Origin: Tetraselmis striata
Lineage: Eukaryota > Chlorophyta > Chlorodendrophyceae > Chlorodendrales > Chlorodendraceae
Direction of reading: 5' to 3'
Assembly: GCA_006384855.1 (NCBI GenBank)
Contig: VCJN01002444.1
Location: forward strand, 1-64,000
Length of the DNA stretch: 64,000 bases
Made by a program: the position numbers and the translations under genes. Below are positions 1-63,464 of this stretch, piece by piece. The first letter of the stretch is position 1, and every line of letters begins with the position of its first letter. The notes beneath the pieces were generated by a model. The model did not search any database. It was not told the origin of the DNA and worked only from the letters and a program-made list of their open reading frames with translations.

Positions 1-3000
1 GGACTGAAGCAGCGTGGCAGGGCTGCCCCGTCGCAATGGCGCCGACGAGCACGGCACACGGCTCCGGGCTGGACGCCAGTCTAAGCGGTGCGCGGGAGCC
101 GCCACTGTGCGGCGCGGCAGCCCGGTGCGCCTGGCTGCCGCTGCTGCCGCTGCCGCTGCCCTCCGCCGGCGGTGTCCAGCCAAACAGGGCGCCGCAGCGC
201 TGCACGTGTCGCCTCTGCTGCTCCGCCGACATCCTGGGGGAGTACTTCCGCCAAAAGGCGTGGAGCGCGTCGTGCTTGGCGACCCCTGCAACCACAGCCG
301 CCGCCGAGGGGAGGTGGGTTACACTGATTGCCGCATTGCCAGGCGGGGTGGGGCTGCTGCTGCTGATGCTGCTGCTGCCGGGCGGCCTGTTGCACCTTCC
401 CGCGCACGCAGTCCTCCCCGCAAACGACATTATTTTCGGCGCGATTATTTTCGAAACATCGCCACCATCGTACGACAACGTCATAATTTCCCTTAGGAAA
501 ACTCGGAGCACCTCAAGACGACCCTTGACCACCTACGTCGGTGGCATGCGAGGCGAGGAGTAGTCCCGGAGGAGCCCAACCCCTGCACGCTAATGTGGGG
601 TGATGAATGTGGGGCGGTCCGAGAGGTGGGGTACGCACACAAATCACTCGCGAAATGCCGCTTCGCATGCGGCTTGTATATGTCGACTTAATTGCGCGCT
701 AACTTTGCGCTGTATCCGTCCGTTGACCGGTTCAAGTATCGAATGCTGTTTCCGTACCGTAAGCTAGGTACCACAGGCCGGGCATCAGAGGATCACTTGG
801 CGGTGTACGTGCACCCCCGAGCAGCGGTGCGACATGTGCACGACACCCGCGCGGCTACACGGAGTCATGTAGTTAGGCGACCAGAGCGACAAGACAAACA
901 ATCAGCACTGACGCGCTCGGCGAATAAACAGCACTGATTACTGGGCCAATACGGGCATGTAGGCAACACCCGCGTTGCTATGTTGGTAGGTGCCACAAGG
1001 GCATAATGTTTATCGCGCACACCCCTTCTGGTGGGCCCTTTGAGCACTAGAAGCTCGCCAGAGTAAATGGATAATATACATAAATACTAAATAAGATAAG
1101 TAATAAACATATGCTGCGCATTGCATATATGAAGTAAGTTGACAGTTGCTGAATCAGCGATGCGTCGATTTTTCAGAAAATTTTAAAAGAACGGGTTCTA
1201 TATCACTGGCCTACAGTTCCATGAATTGCATTGCAACGGAAGTACCAACAGCGAGCGTTTGCTTTGCCAGAGTTTTTTTTTCCCATTACCAGCAGCGAGT
1301 AGCGAGAACCAGTACCAGTACCTCCGAACCGTGAGATCGTAATCGGACGGCTGTGTAATTAAGGACCGTGGGCGGGCGGGTGGATTATAGTACTTAGTAG
1401 TACATGCCAGTAGACAAGCGCTTTAGTAATGCACCTATAGGCCCGATCCGCTGCACTATACGGGTACCCGTACGGCAATAAAGCTCACCGCCGAAAAATC
1501 GACGCTTCGCTGGATTATAGTGTGCGGTTCGTAGCGGAAACATTTAGGGATCGATGGGCGCTGTGGGGGTCATTGTTGACGGCATTATGGCATGGTGGAC
1601 GTCACACGGCATGACGTGTGCCCTGCGATGGGGGTAGACGCCCCAACCTGGCGATGACAAGCGCGGCCGCCCCGCCTCCGCGTAGTGCCGCACAGTGTGG
1701 GAGGAGCCGTAGGCGATGGTGAACCAAGGCAGGTCCAGGAGGCGGATGAGGAGGTCGCGGTCCGTGCCCGCCCGGAGCGCCTCATCAAAGCAGCCGGCGG
1801 CCATGAGGGCATCCAAGCGCACGTACATGTTGCTCCCCTGGGTTGCCCACCAGGAAGTCGGCGGCGGACAGGGACACCGCGCCGCTGCGCAAATCGTCCA
1901 GCGCGGCGGGGCTTGGCTGCAGCTCCTCTCCGCCTTCGCCGTCGAGGCGGCGGAGCCCGCAGACCACCATGTGCACATGCGTGACTCGCGCGTGCTGCCA
2001 GCGCAAGCACACTGTTATTCTTTTGAGGCGAGTCGCTGCACAAACATGCGGAAACATAAAAAGGGGTTTGGGTTTGTTAAAGAGTTTGACAGGGTCTATG
2101 TTTGAGGTTCATAGACCCTAAACCAAGATAGAATAACAAGCCAAGCAGTATGTTAGGTTGGAGGTTGGCCAATTAGAAATAGATTAGAAGTAAAATAAAA
2201 TAGAAAATGCTTTGATAATTTGGTACTTGAAAGAAATGTACTGACAGATCTTCCTCAGTCGCATTGCGAATTGATTTTGGAAAGCACTCAGGACAGTGTT
2301 TGAGTTTGTATTATTGCCCATTTATTCAGAAAAGTATACGTGCATTTTTTGAAATTAGACAGCGATACAAGAAGGCCCACCGATGCGCCGCGATAATGAG
2401 GCCAGTCATTACGGTTAACGACTACGACTGCGATTTTGATAGGTAATCGTCCGCGTCACGTGATCCTTAGTCTGCGGTTTGATTTCACGCATAAAACATG
2501 TTTATGAATACGGTACGGGGAAGGATTCCAGTGACAGTGCGTTGTGTACGGGTAAGAATTACAAACGCCGCGTGTGCTATCAAGTGTACTGGACATGAAG
2601 GATTACGTCAGCCTTATTATTAGCGCGTTTATACAGTATATTACGATGTAACTTTCGCAAATGACAATTATTAGACAGTAGAATAATGCCAGAATGCAGC
2701 ATGATAAAATAGAAAAACGCTAGAAGGATGGCAAATCACGGCCAGGCACCGCAGTTGAAAATTGGTTGCCACGTTTTGGGTTTTAGGGCCCCATCTCCCG
2801 CTAGAACGACTCCTACCTCAGCGCTGCCGCAACGGGAGCCGTGTTGCTGCAGTGCGTCCGCGCATGCTTCCAGGTGGCGATCCTCCCAGGAGTCGTCGTC
2901 GTCCAGGATGGCGACCCAAGCACCTTCAGCCTCTGAGGTAAGGCCCCGGATGACGTGCAGCCCCGCGTTCCACGCCCCGCTGGCGCTGCGCCTGGTGCGC

Positions 3001-6000
3001 GAATTGTTGACAAACGATACGGGCACTACGTGGTCGTCCCGTTTGCTCCCGGCGCCGCCCGGGACACGCCCGAGCTGCCAGGTCCATGTGCCGTCAGCGG
3101 GGTCCCGCTTCACCAGACCCGCAGAGGCGAGACGCTGCTCCAGCTCCTCCCGTCCGACGTCGCAGTCCATCACCACCACCACGTGCCGCGGCGGCTGCGT
3201 CTGCTTCAGCACCGAGGGCAGGCTGCGCCCAAGCAACAGGTCGAGCCGGCCGCACGTGGCGATGAGCGCAAATACCGCGCCCGGCCGGCCCGGCGGAAAC
3301 AGGGGAGAGTCGCCCGCGCGCAATGCGCCGAGCGACGGGCGGAGGAGTGGAAGGAGCGGCGGGAAGTGTCGCGCCACCAGCGCCGTCATCGCACGCTCCG
3401 TGGGGATCCACGCCCGCTTGCCGCCCTGCACCAGCTGCGCGCCCCGGATGGCCACTTTCTCGCCGCCTGGGAAGGCGCAAATGCGGAGGGACTGCAGGAA
3501 GGGGTTGTGCCGCCCCGGTTGCGTGCGAGACTCCTGCGAATCCACCAGGACATTGAGTCTTTTATTGCGATGGGGTTTCTTCTTGCTCAAAGTCACTGAC
3601 CGCTAGGGCAGCCACCGCCTGGCAATCCCAGCCTGGGGTACGCTCCCGGGTGCGGAACCGACATTATTTCCGTTTTATTTTCGAATCACCGCCACCAGCA
3701 TGGTGCGAAAAACTTCGACATATTCCTTCGAGAAACTCGAAGCACCTCGAGACAATCCTTGACCACATCGGTGGCATACGAGGCTTGCCCACCAAGCATT
3801 CCCGGAGAAGCTCGGCGCACACACATAGTGGGGGGATGCATGCTGTGCATGTGGGGTGGTCCGAAACATTCGGTATGCGCACGTGTAACTAGCGAAATGT
3901 TGCTTCGCATGCTTCTCGTAAGATTGGACTTTATCCCACGCTATAACCGTTCGGTTTCTCCGTCCTACGACCGGTTGGTCAAATATCGTCTATCGTTTCC
4001 GTTCGACGAGCTAGGTACCGCAGGCCTCCCATACTACTGAAACTGCCCCAACCTAAAGTCCCCCCCCCCCCCCCCCCCTCCCCTGTCTGTACTACGGCAA
4101 CACTACGCCGGCCCATGCCGCACCCGGATCATAGGCAGAAAGAAGGCCCGCGGCCGCGGCACGTCCTCAAACTCGAGGGCCAGGGTCCATGCCCTTGCTC
4201 CGGCCATCTTGTGATGCAGCTGGTACACGGGCCTCCGATGGCGCGCACAGAACACGCGCGGCAGTGGGACTCTGAAACACCCTGGCGCTACTCCTTCACG
4301 AAGTAGCTGATTCCAACGGCAACATGGCGCACAGCAATGCTGGTGCAGAGCGTTGCAAGGGGATGGCATCCGGTGCCCATGGCATGTGGTCGGAAGCTCA
4401 TGGGCGGCGCAGAAACGACAGTCGATGGTTGACCCGGTCAACGGACGGATATGCCATCAACTTTGCGTGGAATGGAGCCGCAGCAATGGGAAGTGACATT
4501 TCGCAAGTGATTCGTGCGCATACTGTGTGTTTCAGACCCCCCACATGCATCACCCCACATTTTGCGCGCGGACCGGGCTTCTGCGGGAGTCCGGCGGGAA
4601 ATCTCAGCGGCAAGCTTCGAACGCCAACAACGTAGTCAAGGGTCGTCTTGCGGTGTGGCGAGTTTCTCGAAAAGAAAAGTTTTTGCTCAATGAGTTTCGA
4701 AAATGAAGAAAAGGAAATGTCGTTTGCGCGGGGTACTTCGCGGGCGGGAAGGTGCCACAAACCGCATGTGGATGCGGCCGCTTACGGTTTGGTCCCGCCG
4801 GAGCCGTCATCTGGCCTGAGCCGCTCCAGCCGGTAGCTCAGCGAGGAGTGGCGCTGCGCCTCCCCGAGGGATGCCCCTGTGAGTGGAAGGGTATGGAAAT
4901 AGGGCGCGGCATTGCCGACATCCAGGAACATGCGGATGGGCCCGGCGGTGCTGCGGAGGCATGTAGCAGGAGAGTCGTCGCCGGGGCGGGTGGGTGAGTC
5001 CTCAGCCTCATCAGCCCCTGGCATGTTGACTGCGCTGGCCTGGCAGCCGTCGTACCGCAGCATCATTGCAATGTTAGCTCTTAGCGGAATCGATTGGCCG
5101 CATCATCACGGACGCATTATTGGACTCATCAGTCTACTAGAATACTAGACAAGACTAGACTAGACAAGACTAGACTAGACTAGACTAGACTAGACTAGAC
5201 TAGAATAGAATAGAATCGAATGGAATAGAATAGAATAGAATAGAATCGAATCGAATGGAATAGAATAGAATAGAATAGAATAGAATAGAATAGAATAGAA
5301 TAAAAAATGGTTGATGACTTGGCCTTTTCTTGGAAATAAACACACAGATACATCTGCGAATCGATTTCAAATAGCACGAAGTACATTTTTTAGTTTGTAT
5401 TGCCCATTCAGCATGGACTGATTAGCGCTTGTTATCTGCAACTTTCGGTTGCGTACCGCACATTTAATAGCGATTGGATATTTTGACAGATCCTTGTTTA
5501 CGAGTAATATAATGATTCTTGCAGACCAGTACCAATATCCGCACGGGTACCAGTAATCACTAGGTAGCGCAGCAATCATACCAGTAGGTGGTTTTCCGGT
5601 ATACGTACAATCCGCCGTAGCCATGCATGATGTGAAGATCACACAATCCTTAGTACTGCGTTCAAACATTTCGTTATATTGAAACTGTAGCCATAATATT
5701 ATTTAGAACATGAGAATAATGGACTACATGTAAACATAATTGGGAAACGCCTGAAGGGTGGCAAATCAAACACGGCCAGGGTAGGCACCGCTGTTTCGAT
5801 TCGTTGCCACCTACGCGTTAGTATGTATGATATTATCCAAAAACCGCTACGGATCGATGTTGGAATCCCGATGTGCGAGCACAAGCATGTGGCGGAACAT
5901 CTACGCGCGAACTGACGTCGATGTTGCGAGCATACGACGTTGCGACAGCACGTGACAGTTTACACGTGACAGCTCCACTAGAACATGAAATACTGAACCC

Positions 6001-9000
6001 GCGATGTGTACATGTAATAGGTCACACCGCATTCGGCATTTGGTACGAAGCCCACCGCACGATCACGACATTCGATGTTTTACCCAATCAACGGCGGATG
6101 GAGACACCGTAAACCTCGTCGCGCGGAATTATGTTGAATCATCTGAGCGAAGTGCAAAGCAACACTTCGTCAGTTATTTGTGCGCATACCAAATGTTTCG
6201 GACCACCCCACATTCACCACCCCACATTACGCGCACGCTGGGCTTCTCGTCCGGGAGCGCTCTGCGGGTGGACCTCGTATGTCACCGTCGAGGCCAAGCG
6301 TCAGCTCGAGTTTCGGCGAGTTTCTCGAAGGACAACGATGACGTTTTCGCACAATGATGGCGATGTTTCCAAAATATAACGGGAATGTCGTTTGCGCGGC
6401 CTTTTTCGCGCGCGGGAGCGTAACTCAAGCCATGCCATTCAACACAAAGCTTTGCAATGTCGGGATCCCCAGGGTGTCGCGACATGCCTGTTGTTGACCC
6501 GTGAGCACGACTCACCAGGTCCGCAATCACAGCCGCGTGGCAATGATCACCCCCCTGCCCGATCTTGCAGGCGACCAGGTAACAGGTGTAACCCAGCGCC
6601 AACAGCAGCGCCTGCAGGTACACATTCGTCACCGCACACGGCCCTCCAAGCTTGGACTCGACATCCCTGCAGCAACACCATCATCACAACCATTGTCGTT
6701 AGCATCAGCGCCCCCTCTCCCCCCCCCCCCCCCCCCCCCCCCCAACCCCTACTCGCAACCCGTCAACCTCATCACCTATCATCAGCATCGCGAGCAGCAC
6801 AATCAGCATCGTCACTATTGTCATCGACACCCCCAACCGCCTCCCACCAGCGCCATCATTAACATTATCATCATCATCATCATCATCGCCATGTCATGGA
6901 CACCCTCAACCGCCTCTCGCCAGCATCATCAACAGTATCGTCATCAGCATCAGCCTCCCCCCCCCCCCCCTTTCCGCCTACCCGCAACCCGTTATCCTCA
7001 TTCTGAGCAACAACGTGAGCATCGTCATCATTGCCACTATTGTCTTCGACACCCCCAACCGCCTCCCACTAGCGCCATCATCAACACTATTGTTGCCAGC
7101 ATTAGCATCAACCCTCCAGCGCCCTCGTGAATAAGGCCAATCGCCTACGGCAATGAGCGTGCTGTGTTTGCCGCCACACCATTCCAGCGGGCAGGCAACA
7201 TCCGGAGACTGGTATACTGGTGGTAGAACTGACGGCGGTTGTCAAGGCGGCTGTCCGTACCGCTGTATTTCCTCTGGCGTGGGAGGCCTCCGCGGCCGGG
7301 TGAGCATCGTCATATTATGAAACGGCACATGTTCCAGGAACTTGGGGAGTAGTAGATCCAGCCATTGCCGTGTTGGACGCATTGGGCACACGAGGCCCAA
7401 ACTGACAACAAAGGTCTCCGCTTTTGCACGGGTCAGGCGGAGGTCGCGATCGTCACCCGCGTCATCACCGCCGCCCATCGGTCGTTCGGCGCTCTGCGTG
7501 CGGTCTCGGGTGTCTACCGGCGCCAGAGCAAGGGCCTCCCTCACGCGCCGCCGGTCGGCGTTTCTCTGCAGCACAACGCGTGTCTTGGCTGCGCAGCTGC
7601 CCACAGGACTCTGGTCAAAGATGTCCCGAAAGCAGCGCTCCTCATTGCCAGGATGGGTGATCTGAGTGGGAAGTGGATGGCGTAGGCTGGCCGCTGCCTG
7701 CACGCATGCGCGCAGCCCATGGTGCGCGGCATGCTCAGCAAGGGCAGTCAGCCACCGCTGCCCCACACCTTCTGCAAACTGGATCTTGCGGCGGCGCGCG
7801 AGCTCGGGTGGGAGCAGGTGCTGGAAGGCATGGCGCAGGAGCTGTTTCTCCAGCGGAGGGTCCGCCGGGTCCCGCAGGACGGTGAGAGTGTGCGCCTTGA
7901 GCTCTGCGGGAAGGCGCGGGATTCTATGTCAGGCACATCATCAAGGCAAAGGACACTGCCACAGTGCCACTTCATAACTGAATGTACTGGCGATCATTCG
8001 CTTTGGTGTTATTATTTGGTAGTATAATTGCTGGCCTGCGGTGCAAAGCTCACTGCATTATCCCGATATTTGATATTTGGCAGCTTGGTTGTATCACTGA
8101 ACAGATAAACTGCAAAACCAGCGCGAATTTAAGTCTGAAAATCATACGAGGAAAGTGCGAGGTGGCATTTCGCGAGTGATTCGTGCGCATACCGAATGTT
8201 TCGGACCACCCTAAATTTATCACCCCACAATGCACGCGCGCCGGGGTTCTCGGGAAATGCTCGGCAGGCAAGCCTCGTGTGCCACCAACGTTAATGCTTA
8301 TCGACGTGTCGCGAGTTTCCTGAGGGAAAACGGAGAAGCGTTCGCCCAAGATTGGCGATGTTTGGAAAATCAAACGGAAATGTCGTTTGTGCGCCCTTTA
8401 CTCCCGGAGTACCATAGACCTGCTAGTCGCTTCTAACGTAAATGTTTGGTATTATCGACACTGGGAATGGACTTGTCGCAGTGCTCAGTGGAAGAGGGTG
8501 GTGCATCACCTGGATCGATGCTCAGTGCTGCTTGTACGACTTGGGGGTCCATGAACGGCACACGCGCCTCGACCCCAAACGCCATGCAGGCGCGGTCCAC
8601 CCGGAGGAGCTCGCTCCCGTGTAAACCAGTTGTCAAGCGCCAGCACTCCTTGTGCATCGTGGCTGGATCGGTCCCATGGGAACGCTGCGGCCCGAAGCGG
8701 TCGTAGCCGCAGAAGAGCTCGTCGACGCCCTCGCCGACCAGGACCGCCCGCCCACCGCGCTGCCGGACAAAGCGCGCCAGCAGGAACAGCGGGACCGCCG
8801 CCCTGACCACCGGAACATCAAACGTCTCCACATGCCGAATGACATCCTCCAACGCAGCGAGCCCTTCCTCCACCGTGAAGGTGCACTCCAGCAGGTTCAG
8901 CCCCAGGTGCTGTTGCAGCCGGCGCGCCGCTTTCAGGTCCTCGGAGGAAGCATCCCCTGCCACCAATTGTTCGCCCCGGCGGCAGCTCAGCCACCGCTGC

Positions 9001-9587
9001 CAACACATCTGCAACAGGCATGTCCACTGCATCGAAGGCCGTGATGCCTAGCAAGGAAGTGCATTGCCCGTGTGTACTCAGGAATGGCATTTGCCTGCCA
9101 AGGAGACGGTGTATGCCGTGACAGGCGCCGTGCCGTGATGATGGCGTGCCATGATGGCCGCTACAATGGACGAGTCCAGGCCTCCTGAGAGCAGGACGCC
9201 AACCGATCCATTATCCGCCTGCATACGTCGCTACACCGCACCGGATACCTGACAGAAGACTGCCCGGCTTGCGTTCTCCATGTCGGTGTGCTGGAACCGT
9301 GTGTGGGGCAATGGCCATTGCGGAGTCTTGCTGGCGGTCAGTGGGGTGCCCAATGACCAGTACGGTTCAAACTCGAAACCACGCCCGGATGCTGACCCGG
9401 GCGCAGTGGAATGGCTGCGGGTGAGCGGTAGCTCCAAGAAGTGCCCGGGCGGCATCTCTTCAATCCGTGTACAATCCGGAGGGATAGCCCCCAGAGTGCT
9501 GGACACCCAGGTCAGGTGCTTCTGTTCTTGCTCGCCAACATAGATCGGCCTGGTAGTGGCAGTTGGCAACACAGCCTCAGACTCTCG

Positions 9588-9619
<32 letters not shown>

Positions 9620-11583
9620 ACATATATGCCATATATGTATACATATATATATATATATATATATATGAATACATGATCTGTTCTGAGACCATCATAACAC
9701 GGTTCACAGAGTTTAAAGTGATGTATTTACTTGCCACGGTAGCACTAATCTTTCAAAACCGAAATATTATGACGACAGAGAATAACATGGAATATGATAA
9801 CAGTGTACCCGCACAATTGTCACAGATGTGCTGCAAAGTTTGATACCATAATTGTTGTTAGATGTAATATGTTGCCCAAGCCGAAATGAAGGTGGGCAGC
9901 CGGGCAGCGCACTTGACACCCAGCCGGTCGCGGGCCACCAGCAGCATCTGCTGCTCATTGTCCAAAAGCGCGAAAGCAAACTCGCCATCCAAGGCGCTCA
10001 GTAGAGCGCGGGAGTTGCCTCGGTACCCGTCATCCACCCACAGCTTCAAGATGACCTGCAAACGCACGCAATTGCTGCAGGGTCAATCGCACCCTGCTGG
10101 AGTCACGAGACTACTTCAATCCAGGAATCCAGGATGCTCGGCTTGAATCACGAATATGATTAGTAAGACGCAGTCTCCTATGAATTATAAATTGTTAATA
10201 TCTATAAGTCGCTGAGTTGTAATAAGGGTTAACGTAAACTGTAAGGCTGCTTGTAGAAATAGAGCATGCATGGTCGAATACCATCACCGTATACGAATAT
10301 ATCAGACGTCTATGTAATTCCGTTGAATCGGAATCGCGCCCTAACCTGCGAGTCGCTTATGCCAGGTTCTCGTTCGACCGCGTGCTCGGTGCCGTAGAGT
10401 TCTCCGTTGCACACGAGGGCTGCGCCACTCCGGAGAATTGGCTGCTTCCCATGGTCACCATCGCCGACAATGGCCAGTCGAGCATGTGCGAGCAGCGCGC
10501 ATGAATTCGACCATGCGTCTGGGCATCGCCACAAGCCGATCCCGTCGGGGCCCTGCGCAAGCCATCAGCAGTCAATGTGAAAGACCGCCGCTGAAATCCA
10601 AGTTGCTACGATGCATCGATTTGAGCGTGCATCGTAAGCGTTAATATACCCAAGCCAGACAAGATTTAAGTAATAGTAATTCGACCACAGTATTTATTAG
10701 CAAGCAAAAATACTACGACGGCGGGTAATGCGAGTATGCGTGGTACCAGTGTAAGAGTTGCAACGTCGTGCAGAGCGATCGAGATGCTCGTCGATGACAG
10801 TCCTCCGATGTGGCAGTGGATAGGGATGTCAGGGGTATGCGACTACTAAACAATAAACAACTCTCGGAGAGGTTTTAAATCAGTCTCTCATTAAGGACGA
10901 ATTCGATAGTATTAGTTCTGATGCCTGTCGGAACTCGAGGCGGCGGAGTCGAGCGAGATAGTAGCGTATGCTACTCATAGTGAATTAATATGATGCGACG
11001 ACAGATCTCCGGGGGAGGAAATATCCGAGACGACCAGGTGGAATACTGTCAGGGTTGAATGCTCGTCGATAGCTACCGCATTCGTGAATTACTGCGGGGC
11101 TGTTGGACACGGTGGAGTGACGAGAACTGGGCATGTGGCACTGTGGCAAATGTGTTACTTTGGCACTCTGGCACTGGGCCTGTCGCGCCGTGGCAATATT
11201 GACGACCTTTGATGACAGGCTTGACGAAATTCCTAATGAGCATGAATTAAAACATTACATCAAATTTGACGGAGTATAGCGTCATATAACTGAGCTGCAC
11301 GTCACTGCGGCGGAGTGTCAATTTCAGCTAGCAATCGATGGCAGCGACGACGTGTATGTTCCCGCCCGCCGCGGGCGGCGGGGGGGGGGGGGGGGGGGGG
11401 GGGGGGGCTTATCTTGCGGCGATGCTATCGCCCTCTTACCCTGTGCTCAAGTAGACGCAGCCTCTCCTCTATGAAGGCCTCGAGCCGTCTCCGGTCGTTT
11501 GAACACCCGGCAGAATGACTGAGACTGATGTCAGAGCTGCTGTCATCCGTAGCCCAGGCTACCACCGCCAATATACCGCACAT
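1..11583 (-). CDS. Tri-modular asparagine synthetase / arylamine N-acetyltransferase / GT2 glycosyltransferase fusion (3' end outside window)
   Basis: Hand-built model, minus strand: exons 11583-11440, 10552-10346, 10055-9913, 9549-9095, 8956-8510, 7903-7261, 6666-6516, 5039-4786, 4271-4124, 3533-2817, 1994-1648 and 285 to beyond base 1. Codon phase agrees at all eleven junctions, giving about 1,310 residues before the edge. The start is the ATG of MCGILAVVAW, the classic N-terminal nucleophile cysteine of class II amidotransferases. Two modules are joined inside single exons: 7903-7261 carries the synthetase C-terminus and the NAT N-terminus, 3533-2817 carries the NAT C-terminus and the GT2 start, so this is one gene and not three neighbours. 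Intron 4 uses a GC donor. Oddities: an in-frame TAG at 9231-9233 and one excess base near 1835-1838. It could be a decaying gene or contain assembly errors. Biochemical product unknown. Confidence 0.85.
395..775 (-). repeat. Dispersed repeat R1, copy A (in last visible intron of the fusion gene)
   Basis: About 380 bp lying inside intron 286-1647. It shares with four other copies the block around TTTCGCGAGTGATT, the block GGACC(G/A)CCCCACATTC and the end block AATGTCGTTTGCG. Read in the repeat's own direction it runs on the minus strand, the same direction as the gene. The rest of this intron (775-1647) is AT-richer and shows no gene. Confidence 0.75.
2160..2775 (+). repeat. AT-rich dispersed repeat R2, copy 1
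   Basis: Occupies most of intron 1995-2816 of the fusion gene. It shares with 5310-5815 and, in reverse, 34960-35490 the stretches ACTGACAGATC, GTTTGTATT(ATT)GCCCAT and, at the other end, CGCTAGAAGG(A)TGGCAAATCA followed by GGCCAGG(C)ACCGC. The copies are markedly diverged, so the family is old. No coding capacity is visible; class unknown. Confidence 0.6.
3645..4025 (-). repeat. Dispersed repeat R1, copy B
   Basis: Fills most of intron 3534-4123 of the fusion gene. It has the shared R1 blocks, including CGCATACCGAATGTTTCGGA in reverse complement, and extends to a segment containing GGTACCTAGCTCGTCG that copy A also has. A C run of about 20 on the plus strand (about 4059-4079) lies between the copy and exon 4271-4124, so on the gene's strand it is a G run some 45 bases after the 5' splice site. 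Confidence 0.75.
4410..4755 (+). repeat. Dispersed repeat R1, copy C
   Basis: Lies in intron 4272-4785 of the fusion gene, opposite in direction to copies A and B. It ends about 30 bases from exon 5039-4786. Shared blocks: GACATTTCGCAAGTGATTCG, CCACAT...ATCACCCCACAT and GGAAATGTCGTTTGCGCGG. Upstream it also shares GGTCAACGGACGGATA with copy A. Confidence 0.75.
5130..5308 (+). repeat. Pentanucleotide microsatellite (TAGAC)n grading into (TAGAA)n
   Basis: About 175 bp of 5-bp units inside intron 5040-6515 of the fusion gene. The left part is TAGAC-type, the right part TAGAA-type with TCGAA and TGGAA variants, so one array has drifted from one unit to the other. It directly precedes an R2 copy. 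Confidence 0.9.
5310..5815 (+). repeat. AT-rich dispersed repeat R2, copy 2
   Basis: Second R2 copy, in intron 5040-6515. It has the shared TTTGTATTGCCCAT block near its left end and GGGTGGCAAATCA...CGGCCAGGGTAGGCACCGC at its right end. Between them the sequence is AT-rich without an ORF of note. Confidence 0.6.
6060..6420 (+). repeat. Dispersed repeat R1, copy D
   Basis: Lies in the same intron as R2 copy 2 and ends about 95 bases from exon 6666-6516. It carries CAAATGTTTCGGACCACCCC, CACCCCACATTACGCGC, CGAGTTTCTCGAAGG and GGAATGTCGTTTGCGCGG. Confidence 0.75.
6690..7135 (+). repeat. CAT/CAG-rich tandem duplication with poly-C separators
   Basis: Two diverged copies of a unit of about 240 bp, each starting with a poly-C tract (near 6719-6743 and 6958-6970) followed by CGCAACCCGT and a CAT-rich stretch ending in CACCCCCAACCGCCTCCCAC. 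It fills intron 6667-7260 of the fusion gene. The ORFs predicted here are low-complexity His/Pro/Ser strings and are not genes. Confidence 0.7.
8060..8415 (+). repeat. Dispersed repeat R1, copy E
   Basis: Lies in intron 7904-8509 of the fusion gene. It is the cleanest match in the core: GGCATTTCGCGAGTGATTCG, CGCATACCGAATGTTTCGGA and GGAAATGTCGTTTGTGCGCC. It is the fifth copy, and each of five introns of this gene holds exactly one. Confidence 0.8.
9590..9666 (+). repeat. Compound (CT)n/(TA)n microsatellite
   Basis: A (CT)n run followed by (TA)n in intron 9550-9912 of the fusion gene. The rest of that intron (9667-9912) is AT-rich and shows no gene. Confidence 0.9.
10553..11439. other. Intron 1 of the fusion gene, no gene seen
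   Basis: An 887-bp intron without a recognisable gene or repeat family. A G run on the plus strand (about 11381-11407) becomes a C run about 33 bases after the 5' splice site on the gene's strand. Confidence 0.6.
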
Positions 11584-34385: not shown

Positions 34386-37300
34386 AAAAACACACACACA
34401 CACACACTGGGACCCGCTCCCCCAACACACACCTCTCTTGCCCCTCATTCCGCACTCCTGCTCTCGCTTTGCAGGGGCAATCCTGGCGAAAGCAGTATAG
34501 GAGGAAGCATATGCTGCGCGGTCTCCATGCCGTGGAGTGGGAGCCGTTGCCAGCAGGGAGTAGCAAGAGCCGGTAACCCCCTGCCTCCCCCCCCCATTAG
34601 CACGCCCACCTCCTTGCCCAGCAGGACAGCACTGTTACACATAGCCCCCTTGCAATGATATAACGACATGCCAGTGGCCCTGAACATCATCCTGCCCATC
34701 ACCCACCTGAGTATGGACCCTGTCGTTGGCGTGCAGCCCTTGTGCCCGCGAGGGCCACTCCTTTGCACCGCACCGTGGTGGAGCAGTCCTCTTTGGCGGC
34801 TGGGGCGGCGCCATTCGCAACGACGTGTACCGCTTGGACTGCGCAGAGCTTGAGCGCAGCGTGAGACCCCCCCCCCCCCCCTCCCCGACCCGTTTTCCCT
34901 CCTCACTTGTCCTCTTAGTAGCAGATGAACAGTTTTTGTAAGATACCCACTCAATGTGGTGGGAGATCATAGAATGTATGAAGCTTCTGCTCGAAGAATG
35001 ACTGTACGAGCGCGTAGGTGGCAATTTATGAAAAACGGCGGTGCCTGGCCGTGTTTTGCCAACCTTCTAGCGTCTTTTCTATTTCTATCTATTCTGCTAT
35101 TCTTCTACTGTCTTCTCATTACCGATATCAAGTTCCATGGTAATAGACGTTTGATAAGTGATAGTAAGGACTACGTAATTACACAGGTAGTCAATTGCTG
35201 CTACTCGTACTGGTTCCCCGCAGGTGTCATCCCTATCAGGCGTCGAAAAATGGTAGAAGTCGTTGCCATCAGTATGATTAATGTAATCTTATCGCTACTG
35301 TGCATCGGTACATATTCCTGTATCACTATCTATCTCAAACAATGCACATATACTTTTCCTGAATGAATGGGCAATACAAACTCAAAACAGTGCCCTTAGT
35401 GCTTTCCGAAATTTCATCGCAATATGACTGAGACGTATCTGTCAGTTTTCTTTCAAAATCCTCCAAACTATCAACACATCACATATTTCTATTATATTCT
35501 ATTCTTATTGCCCAATTTCTACCCTACTACACTGGTTAGTTATACCCGCCACAGAAACTCCGGCCCGATGCCGGTGATTCTTGCTCTGCAGCTGCAGCCG
35601 GGTTGTGTTTGATGGTTGTCGGCATGCCTGTGCAGGGTGAGGTGATGTGGAGGTCCATCAATGCAAGGCGGGGCGGCGACGTGCCCCACGTGCGCTACGG
35701 GCACAGCCTCACTGCCTGCGGCGACCTGCTGGTGGCGTTTGGCGGCATGATCAGCGGCGGCTACCGCAACGACCTGGACGACGTGGCGGTGCTGCGCCCC
35801 CGGCCTGAGGATGACGAGCTGCAGCCACCTGGCGGCGGGGGCATGCAGTTCTTCCAGCCGGTGTGTGAGGGGCCGGCGCCATGCGCACGTGGATACCACT
35901 CCGCGTGCGCCTCGCCTGACGGCACCAAGGTCCGCCTCCCCGCTGGGCGCCCGCCGCTCAGTTATGGGGATGACATGCTTGCCAATCATATATGTTCACA
36001 CCTTCATTAGGACACCCATATAAGCTTGCATTTCACACCACCCAGGCTTCTACTTTTCTAGCTCACCCTCTTATCTCTCCCCAAGCTGGCACCCTGAACA
36101 TGGCGCGCCCATCGTTCTCGCTGTTCCATGGTACACAAGCAACCCATCTGAGAAAATTCCGGTGCTGCCCCGCTCCTGCGCAGCTCTACATCTTCGGCGG
36201 CATCTCCCACGGCCGAGGCTGCAACGAGCTCGCTGTCCTTGATGTCACCACCTGGACGTGGACGCTGCCTGCCACGCACGGGGAGCTGCCGAGCCCGCGC
36301 TTTGGTTCTGCCATGGCGGTGCGCCACACCTCCGCAACCCCATGCCGACACATTCACATGCACATGCACATGTACAGTACAGCACATATACAATACATAC
36401 AAAACATACAATACATATTGTAACATGTCCCTCACTCTGACCTCGCTGAGAATGTACCGTACAGAAGTAACGGTCCGCGGATGAGAAAATGTTTTTGACC
36501 CCTTGCGAAGAGGGAAAACTAGTAGTCGGAATAGAGCACGAATACAGCAAGCATATTCCGACTCGAAGATGCAAAACAAATTCATTTTTTGTTTGGCCCC
36601 GCGGACCGTACTTAATTGTACAGTATGCTGGTGTATACGCACGGGCGCATATAATGTGAACATGTGGCAGCTTTTGTAGATACGGCAGGAACCATCCTTG
36701 ACCACATGGGTCTACAAGATGCTGAGTATGCGTCACCCTGAGGGGGGGGGGGGTCCTTGAAGAAACCGGCAGCATGAGCAATTTGTTCATACCGTGTGCT
36801 GCTGCCCACCAGGTTTACAACAACCAGCTTTGGGTGGTTGGCGGCGGGCGGGGTGGCGACTTGCTGCGCAGTGGACCAGACGTGCACGATGTGCATTGCC
36901 TGGACCTGGCATCTCTCACGTGGAGCAAGCCCGCATTGCAAGGGGCGCCGCCCTCACCGGAATGCACAGGTGTGGTCCAGGAGGGTACTGAGCAGCATGC
37001 GCCTTCGCCCTCGCCCTCACGCCAGCCGCGGCGCCCACGCTGAGCACAGCCGCTGCTGTTTTTTGTGTATATTGGCAGGCAGAGAATGCGGATTTGTGCT
37101 CGTCGGCAGCAAACTGCTCCTGTTTGGCGGCTCCCTCGACTTTCACAACAAGCTGAGCTACATAGACCTGGAGGAGCGCAGGCATGTCACCCCCCCACGG
37201 CGCATCTCCCCTTGGGCCAAACAATCATATTTGTGACTGTCCTTCCTGTGTGACAACTCATCATGGTGACAGGCTGTATGATCTGGGACACTCTATGCAC

Positions 37301-63014: not shown

Positions 63015-63464
63015 GTTGGCGGCGTGAGGCTGTAGGGCTTTTGACGATCAGCTGCGGTTCGTGGTGGTAGCAGAAGGTGCTCGTTGAGGGTGTGGTGGGA
63101 CTGATAACGGGCTGGTTTCACGGAGACGGATGTCAACTTCTTCGCTGCTGTAGTGCGTTGGGCGGGCGAGTGCCGGTCAGCAGACTGGCCATGGGCACAT
63201 GTGGGTGAGTGACACAGATACATCCCGCCAAATAAACGTAATAACCACGATATATTTGTTACAACAAATCACATGATGATAAGGATGAAACGGATGATGA
63301 CGCCCCGCGCAGGCGTTTGTACCCAGGTACTCGTGTCATTCAGCTGCGTCCACCCCATCGTCATCAAAATCGAGAGCTCGTCGCGCCGCAGAGCGCACAT
63401 GCATAAATATAGCGACTACTGTACCCGTACAAATCGTTATGGTCGCCACATTAATAAGTATACT

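Follow-up and report, generated by a model that had tools for sequence, protein, structure and literature searches.

A prokaryotic biosynthetic gene cluster probably fused into one nuclear gene of the green alga Tetraselmis striata

RESULTS

A probable single gene over two contigs

Here, we describe what is probably a single nuclear gene of about 22 kb in Tetraselmis striata, which would run from 11583 to 1 of the window (the whole 64,000-nucleotide stretch analysed, the first 64 kb of contig C1967 in a genome of 224 Mb and 2903 contigs) and then from 5467 to 15977 of contig C1098. The predicted chain has the order AsnB-NAT-GT2a-GT2b-kinase-like-GT3-GT4-LOG. In our reading, to which we assign a probability of roughly 0.68, a biosynthetic gene cluster of prokaryotes has here taken on a fused, eukaryotic form; the figure covers the architecture only, and the chemistry is graded apart and far lower.

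The fusion of AsnB, NAT and GT2 is real at the DNA level: the module order and the open joining exons AsnB/NAT, NAT/GT2a and GT2a/GT2b are read directly from the sequence. The window holds the gene's beginning only, as the gene exits at base 1 and resumes on C1098. A first-pass annotation, made from the window's letters, had proposed a three-module enzyme. Instead, its GT2 opens a GT-GT-kinase-like-GT-GT chain that is followed by LOG, and the algal modules are colinear with bacterial single-chain and gene-cluster relatives, which places them in the GT/AsnB/NAT cluster. The features modelled in the window are:

Exon 1, 11440..11583, minus strand: start codon and N-terminal Cys of AsnB (MCGIL...LLEHR); splice model, phase 0.
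Exon 2, 10346..10552, minus strand: glutaminase domain (GPDG...NGELYG); ASN profile match 10516-10382, 3.7e-6.
Exon 3, 9913..10055, minus strand: glutaminase domain (DGEFAFALLD...RDRLGVK); ASN profile match 10022-9912, 4e-4.
Exon 4, 9249..9549, minus strand: end of the glutaminase domain; PRK09431 match on ORF 9231-9617, 3.3e-4.
18-nt stretch, 9231..9248, minus strand: in-frame TAG (9231-9233) inside AsnB; either an extremely short intron or coding sequence that carries a nonsense codon or an error of sequencing.
Exon 5, 9095..9230, minus strand: PP-loop SGGLDSS; ASN profile match 9230-9132, 4.7e-9; a GC-AG intron follows.
Exon 6, 8510..8956, minus strand: synthase domain (GEGVDELFCGY); PF00733, 1.6e-31; ASN profile match 8960-8523, 6.8e-22.
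Exon 7, 7261..7903, minus strand: the C-terminus of AsnB runs into the N-terminus of NAT without a break in the frame; ASN match 7850-7755, NAT match 7361-7296, L032 NAT match 7391-7266.
Exon 8, 6516..6666, minus strand: core of NAT, holding the catalytic residues Cys (GGPC) and His; L032 NAT match 6665-6516 and alignment.
Exon 9, 4786..5006, minus strand: NAT catalytic Asp (FLDVGN), 5' end uncertain; from a chance-level match at 4934-4878 (iE 6.7), alignment and phase.
Exon 10, 4124..4271, minus strand: C-terminal half of NAT; residues 199-267 of the algal NAT model, which span exons 10-11, align with the L032 NAT at 9.6e-7.
Exon 11, 2817..3533, minus strand: NAT C-terminus and first GT2 (LDDDD); L032 NAT match 3515-3429, giant-GT profile match 3281-2844 (1.4e-27), PF00535.
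Exon 12, 1640..1994, minus strand: end of the first GT2; 8-nt deletion near 1841 relative to the other haplotype.
Start of exon 13, 1..285, minus strand: tail of GT2 (HDALHAFWRKY) ahead of the second GT-like domain; the frame is shifted by a difference of 1 nt at about 29; leaves the contig and continues at L008:5183-5753.

The AsnB module

Since the Cys nucleophile of the AsnB family must come directly after the initiator Met, exon 1 is fixed as the start of the gene. On unspliced frames, Pfam model PF00733 matched at 8433-9047 (1.6e-31) and 7242-7928 (3.8e-7), and the spliced model exceeded the cut-offs of both Asn_synthase (1.4e-58; 199.7 bits vs 21) and GATase_7 (6.6e-20; 71.8 bits vs 25). 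The key residues that had been noted from the letters (Cys2 and SGGLDS) are present in the translation, in the MCGIL start and in LLSGGLDSS, and GEGVDE is there as well. Because the algal branch in the AsnB tree is very long (5.91), this tree was left unused.

How should the 18-nt stretch with its TAG be read? The read-through SGAV*RRM fits the AsnB family by eye, which suggests that 9231-9248 is coding, and we prefer to read the stretch (9248-9231) as coding, with either an error or a nonsense codon, rather than as an intron. Coverage by C1098 stops short of this site and the TAG is read from the window copy alone. A reassignment of TAG was considered and rejected: 54 of the 58 HSP70 matches in the genome are free of stops and the other four are short (two with TAG, two with TGA), so the genome apparently uses the standard code.

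The NAT module

For the middle module, the first-pass annotation had named the NAT profile as the check. In the literal sense this check fails, since PF00797 scores the spliced model at 17.6 bits, below its cut-off of 22.8; NATs of the bacterial clusters nevertheless match the region exon by exon. A profile of 16 cluster NATs was run on the unspliced frames (at least 15 aa) of the window and of C1098:1-20000, and its three best window matches are colinear on the minus strand, at 3548-3429 (iE 0.017), 6659-6522 (0.13) and 7361-7296 (0.29). A fourth colinear match at 4934-4878 is at chance level (iE 6.7) and is outranked by a match at 63040. With a single query, the NAT of a Poribacteria MAG (L032), which itself reaches 63.1 bits with PF00797, we found only 7391-7266 (E 0.0004), 6665-6516 (0.01) and 3515-3429 (0.012) together with the copy on the other haplotype; in the reversed window the same query gave nothing better than E 2.5. 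The match at 6665-6516 agrees with the modelled exon 8 to one base, and the spliced algal NAT matches the L032 NAT at 3e-21. Indeed, the proposed Cys-His-Asp triad is in place: an alignment of 17 sequences shows conservation of Cys (GGPC), His (DHCH) and Asp (LDVG). The exon matches are individually weak, and we accept this predicted NAT module nonetheless, on account of their colinearity, the clean reversed control, the score of the spliced model and the aligned triad; we do not class it as a confirmed member of PF00797.

Joins between the modules

From 11583 to 2817 the splice model has ten introns, nine of them GT-AG (including the 18-nt one) and one GC-AG. Phase is kept throughout this part, as the first-pass annotation had stated for its own model; the 18-nt intron is the stretch with the TAG. 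The AsnB C-terminus and the NAT N-terminus share ORF 7928-7242, the NAT C-terminus and GT2 share ORF 3602-2736, and the GT2a tail and the start of GT2b lie in one exon (L008:5183-5753). The first-pass proposal that two exons (7903-7261 and 3533-2817) physically join the three modules is borne out, as both are open and the module names hold.

An unlikely alternative is that AsnB, NAT and the GT chain are two or more adjacent genes with separate transcripts, lying close together after transfer of a bacterial cluster. Such genes are mostly separate neighbours in the bacterial relatives, and several introns of 0.5-1.5 kb might conceal promoters. Also on its side, the joining stretches between the profile matches, 121 and 49 codons long, are open in 4% and 57% of mononucleotide shuffles; against it, exons 7 and 11 as a whole are open in 0.5% and 1.0%. 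The sharing of open exons at all three joins argues for one chain, as does a bacterial AsnB-NAT fusion (L025).

Continuation on the second contig

GT2a exceeds the Pfam cut-off of PF00535 (32 bits vs 23.3, ORF 2736-3602), and the acidic motif ascribed to it is present as LDDDD. Past window base 1, C1098 carries GT2b, kinase-like, GT3, GT4 and LOG modules colinear with single bacterial chains, and this part closes with a stop at L009:5977. A giant-GT profile of 16 proteins, of which genome contigs supplied 15 and a viral-collection contig the remaining one, gave ten colinear plus-strand matches on C1098, from positions 32 to 1643 of its 1766. For GT2b, GT3 and the kinase-like domain no Pfam model exceeded its cut-off in either the alga or P0001, and the algal GT4 lies under its cut-off (E 0.045; 14.1 bits vs 23.3); we take the names kinase-like, GT2b, GT3 and GT4 from presumed motifs (DxD-like for the GTs) and from homology to the giant chains. 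In the kinase-like domain an Asn replaces the catalytic Asp of the HRD-type motif in all 17 giant-type sequences aligned and all 6 form I sequences matched, and the algal GT4 has DLRE where its relatives have DxDD.

The LOG module is recognized by PF18306 (LOG/SLOG cluster 4; 103.4 bits vs a cut-off of 26.3, L009:4049-5977) and by a cluster-LOG profile (4.8e-51), and it keeps what we take to be the glycine-rich motifs of the family. GT4 and LOG lie in different open frames on C1098, so the GT4-LOG join is the least certain of the chain.

Two haplotypes and the integrity of the window copy

In reverse orientation, C1098 matches window positions 5844 to 1 at roughly 96%, interrupted by a gap of 383 nt, and is taken as the other haplotype. 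Leaving out the 383-nt stretch that is missing from C1098, the haplotypes differ at 15 of 1725 exon sites and at 121 of 3694 sites elsewhere. The codon changes are 10 nonsynonymous and 5 synonymous, which is not clearly below neutral. In exon 11, indels of 2 and 1 nt between the haplotypes change the reading of the NAT-GT2a linker and leave the frame open.

Is the window copy a decaying allele, or a pseudogene of a gene that is functional now or was so earlier? We regard this as a minority possibility. The window copy contains the in-frame TAG, has 8 nt fewer near 1841 and is shifted by 1 nt at about 29, and the 10 nonsynonymous to 5 synonymous changes point the same way. Against decay, C1098 is open at both 1841 and 29 where the window is broken, contig ends are error-prone, the exons diverge about one quarter as much as the other sites, and AsnB, NAT and GT2a retain their catalytic residues.

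Origin of the sequence

Bacterial contamination of the assembly is very improbable. The relatives found are bacterial and archaeal, from searches of prokaryotic, plasmid and viral collections, as contamination would predict. However, the homologous segments are broken by introns at splice-like boundaries, these introns hold a repeat that is also present on other contigs of the genome, two similar contigs (C1967 and C1098) carry the region, and the genome contains many chlorophyll a/b-binding protein genes (63 family matches). One LHC protein strongly matches chlorophyll a-b binding proteins in the PDB, with 9vfj_2 'LHCI-2' as the best chain, in line with a chlorophyll a/b alga.

Other AsnB-type matches occur elsewhere in the genome, the best on C145, and a separate NAT match lies on C1846; the AsnB and NAT modules of the fusion are thus extra copies. 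The algal branches are long in the trees of all four modules treed. The LOG tree gives the alga no firm placement. A transfer from Poribacteria was considered, as the closest NAT lies in the Poribacteria MAG L032, and was rejected: this NAT occurs in 1 of 84 genomes of the phylum, its own; in the GT2b tree, by contrast, the alga groups with Planctomycetota (96/93) and has a very long branch.

Repeats in the gene

A family of repeats about 350 bp long, lying in either orientation and 65-81% alike, occupies five modelled window introns and two gaps of the gene on C1098:

About 350-bp repeat: window 398-745, 3652-3909, 4496-4749, 6065-6417 and 8121-8399; L008 about 9231-9401; L009 about 1714-1863.

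The repeat was found in at least 22 places genome-wide (224 Mb); C1967 and C1098 hold at least 9 of these places, some of which are allelic. Its boundaries differ from the splice sites, and it possibly spread locally inside a transferred gene. A second repeat family occurs at 35034-35541 of the window and in non-coding stretches of C1098 (L008 3082-3202, 3454-3708, 7905-8144 and 8514-8619).

Bacterial and archaeal relatives

Is the order of modules also found outside the alga? Among plasmids, the second GT exon matched one record by tblastn, from Pseudoalteromonas donghaensis, where the gene adjoins GCHII-NADAR, AsnB and NAT genes. We examined 110 loci (L010-L119): the best 80 of 293 confirmed relatives from genome contigs, among at least 591 pattern matches, together with 29 relatives from viral contigs and the plasmid locus. 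The first-pass suggestion that the modules may be neighbours in bacteria proved right, as AsnB, NAT and GT are adjacent genes in bacteria and in archaea. Among these 110 loci, 44 contain a GT2b-type domain, three (L025, L028, L057) have the gene order AsnB-NAT-GT, and in L025, a Tenacibaculum MAG, AsnB and NAT share one ORF of 705 aa. Single chains X-GT2b-kinase-GT3-GT4 in the algal order occur in seven of the 110 (L026, L027, L033, L034, L035, L036, L091), and LOG adjoins five of these seven; it is fused to the chain in L047 (by Pfam), L050 and L092. The distribution of the system is patchy, with the GT2b domain in 4 of the 121 genomes of the class of L038, its own included.

An ORF family resembling M20 hydrolases is common to L032, L057, L061, L063 and L070; Pfam confirms the L057 member, the one that was run. 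L091 and L092, listed as viral in IMG/VR, carry a giant GT with LOG and branch beside the bacterial L036 and, for LOG, L047; they are perhaps bacterial DNA filed as viral.

Two partners not found together

At a family cut-off of E 1e-8, GCHII plus NADAR was found in 16 of the 44 GT2b loci (110 examined), LOG in 23, both in none and neither in 5, several of the latter on short or cut contigs. This exclusion gives a Fisher p of 5e-8, a value that ignores shared ancestry. The companions differ as well, with AsnB in 16/16 GCHII loci vs 1/23 LOG loci and NAT in 14/16 vs 2/23. For the GCHII/NADAR partner (form I), P0002 gave no significant match in the window or C1098:1-20000, where LOG is found instead.

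The NADAR half of P0002 exceeds the cut-off of TIGR02464, a riboflavin-intermediate N-glycosidase model (117.2 bits vs 73.7), while the bacterial LOGs reach the cut-off of TIGR00725 and match weakly to NF058542, a cytokinin phosphoribohydrolase model. A RibA fusion domain of such kind is described as cleaving N-glycosidic bonds of early riboflavin intermediates (PMC5312566).

DISCUSSION

What could such a chain make? The either-or occurrence of GCHII-NADAR and LOG suggests one shared function, the release of an aromatic amine from a ribosyl phosphate. Aromatic amines are acylated by NAT enzymes, and AsnB makes amides. We tentatively propose that a nucleotide-derived aromatic amine is freed and is then acylated, amidated and glycosylated. 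In this scheme LOG, like GCHII-NADAR of the other cluster type, would release the aromatic amine from an intermediate with a ribosyl-5-phosphate, which may be a pyrimidine of the riboflavin pathway; an amine would be acylated by NAT, AsnB would form an amide using ATP and glutamine, and the GT domains would attach sugars, with one chain holding the intermediates together. The product would probably be a sugar-decorated small molecule. Equally tentative is the wider picture, in which the alga may have captured a complete and so far undescribed pathway, distributed among bacteria and archaea, and compressed it into a nuclear gene of eight modules. An aromatic amine, derived from a purine or riboflavin intermediate by ring opening and deribosylation, would be converted into an amidated and acylated glycoside, and NADAR and LOG would be interchangeable in the deribosylation.

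The first-pass annotation had also considered that the enzyme modifies wall material. A role in wall or extracellular polysaccharide would suit the GT2 domains and their matches to exopolysaccharide GT models, all of which are under cut-off. We consider it improbable, since the bacterial relatives sit with GCHII-NADAR or LOG, AsnB, NAT and in some cases an M20-type hydrolase, a context that would fit small-molecule chemistry and from which we infer a nucleotide-derived product.

If the gene is expressed, a bacterial gene cluster would have been rebuilt as one eukaryotic chain. In the open-licence papers searched we found no account of the cluster or the fusion, and the gene links two cluster types, with GCHII-NADAR and with LOG, that this literature does not connect. 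The exclusivity of the two partners (0/44 with both, among the 110 loci examined) yields a testable claim on which metabolite the pathway starts from, and laboratory strains make the bacterial clusters experimentally tractable.

Comparison with known systems

Like asparagine synthase B (PRK09431/TIGR01536), the algal AsnB has the Cys nucleophile, the PP-loop and the domain order; it differs by its C-terminal fusion, and its exons, scored singly, stay below the equivalog cut-off. With arylamine N-acetyltransferases (PF00797) the algal NAT shares the Cys-His-Asp triad, and it can be aligned with the cluster NATs, whereas it is embedded in a fusion and lies below the Pfam cut-off.

Among whole systems, the GT-GCHII/NADAR-AsnB-NAT cluster (L010-L016, L018-L024; hosts e.g. 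Pseudoalteromonas, Psychrobacter, Shewanella, Vibrio, a Planctomycetota MAG and a Poseidoniales genome) has homologous AsnB, NAT and GT2a-GT2b as adjacent genes; NAT was not seen in L018 and L023. Unlike the alga, this cluster has separate genes with the GT gene first, GCHII-NADAR in the place of LOG, and no match to GT3/GT4. The giant GT with LOG (L026, L027, L035, L038, L040, L047; e.g. Planctomycetota, Roseovarius, Bacilli) shows in its best members the algal order GT2a-X-GT2b-kinase-like-GT3-GT4 plus LOG. Neither AsnB nor NAT was found in the fetched flanks of these six loci, and the bacterial chains of L026 (residues 993-1175) and L040 (1008-1176) carry, ahead of GT3, a methyltransferase domain for which no counterpart was seen in the alga. 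Finally, Thalassolituus L057 and Tenacibaculum L025 have AsnB, then NAT, then GT, as in the alga, spread over several genes: L057 resembles it further by a LOG upstream and differs by an extra M20-type hydrolase, whereas L025 shares the fused AsnB-NAT and differs by its GCHII-NADAR.
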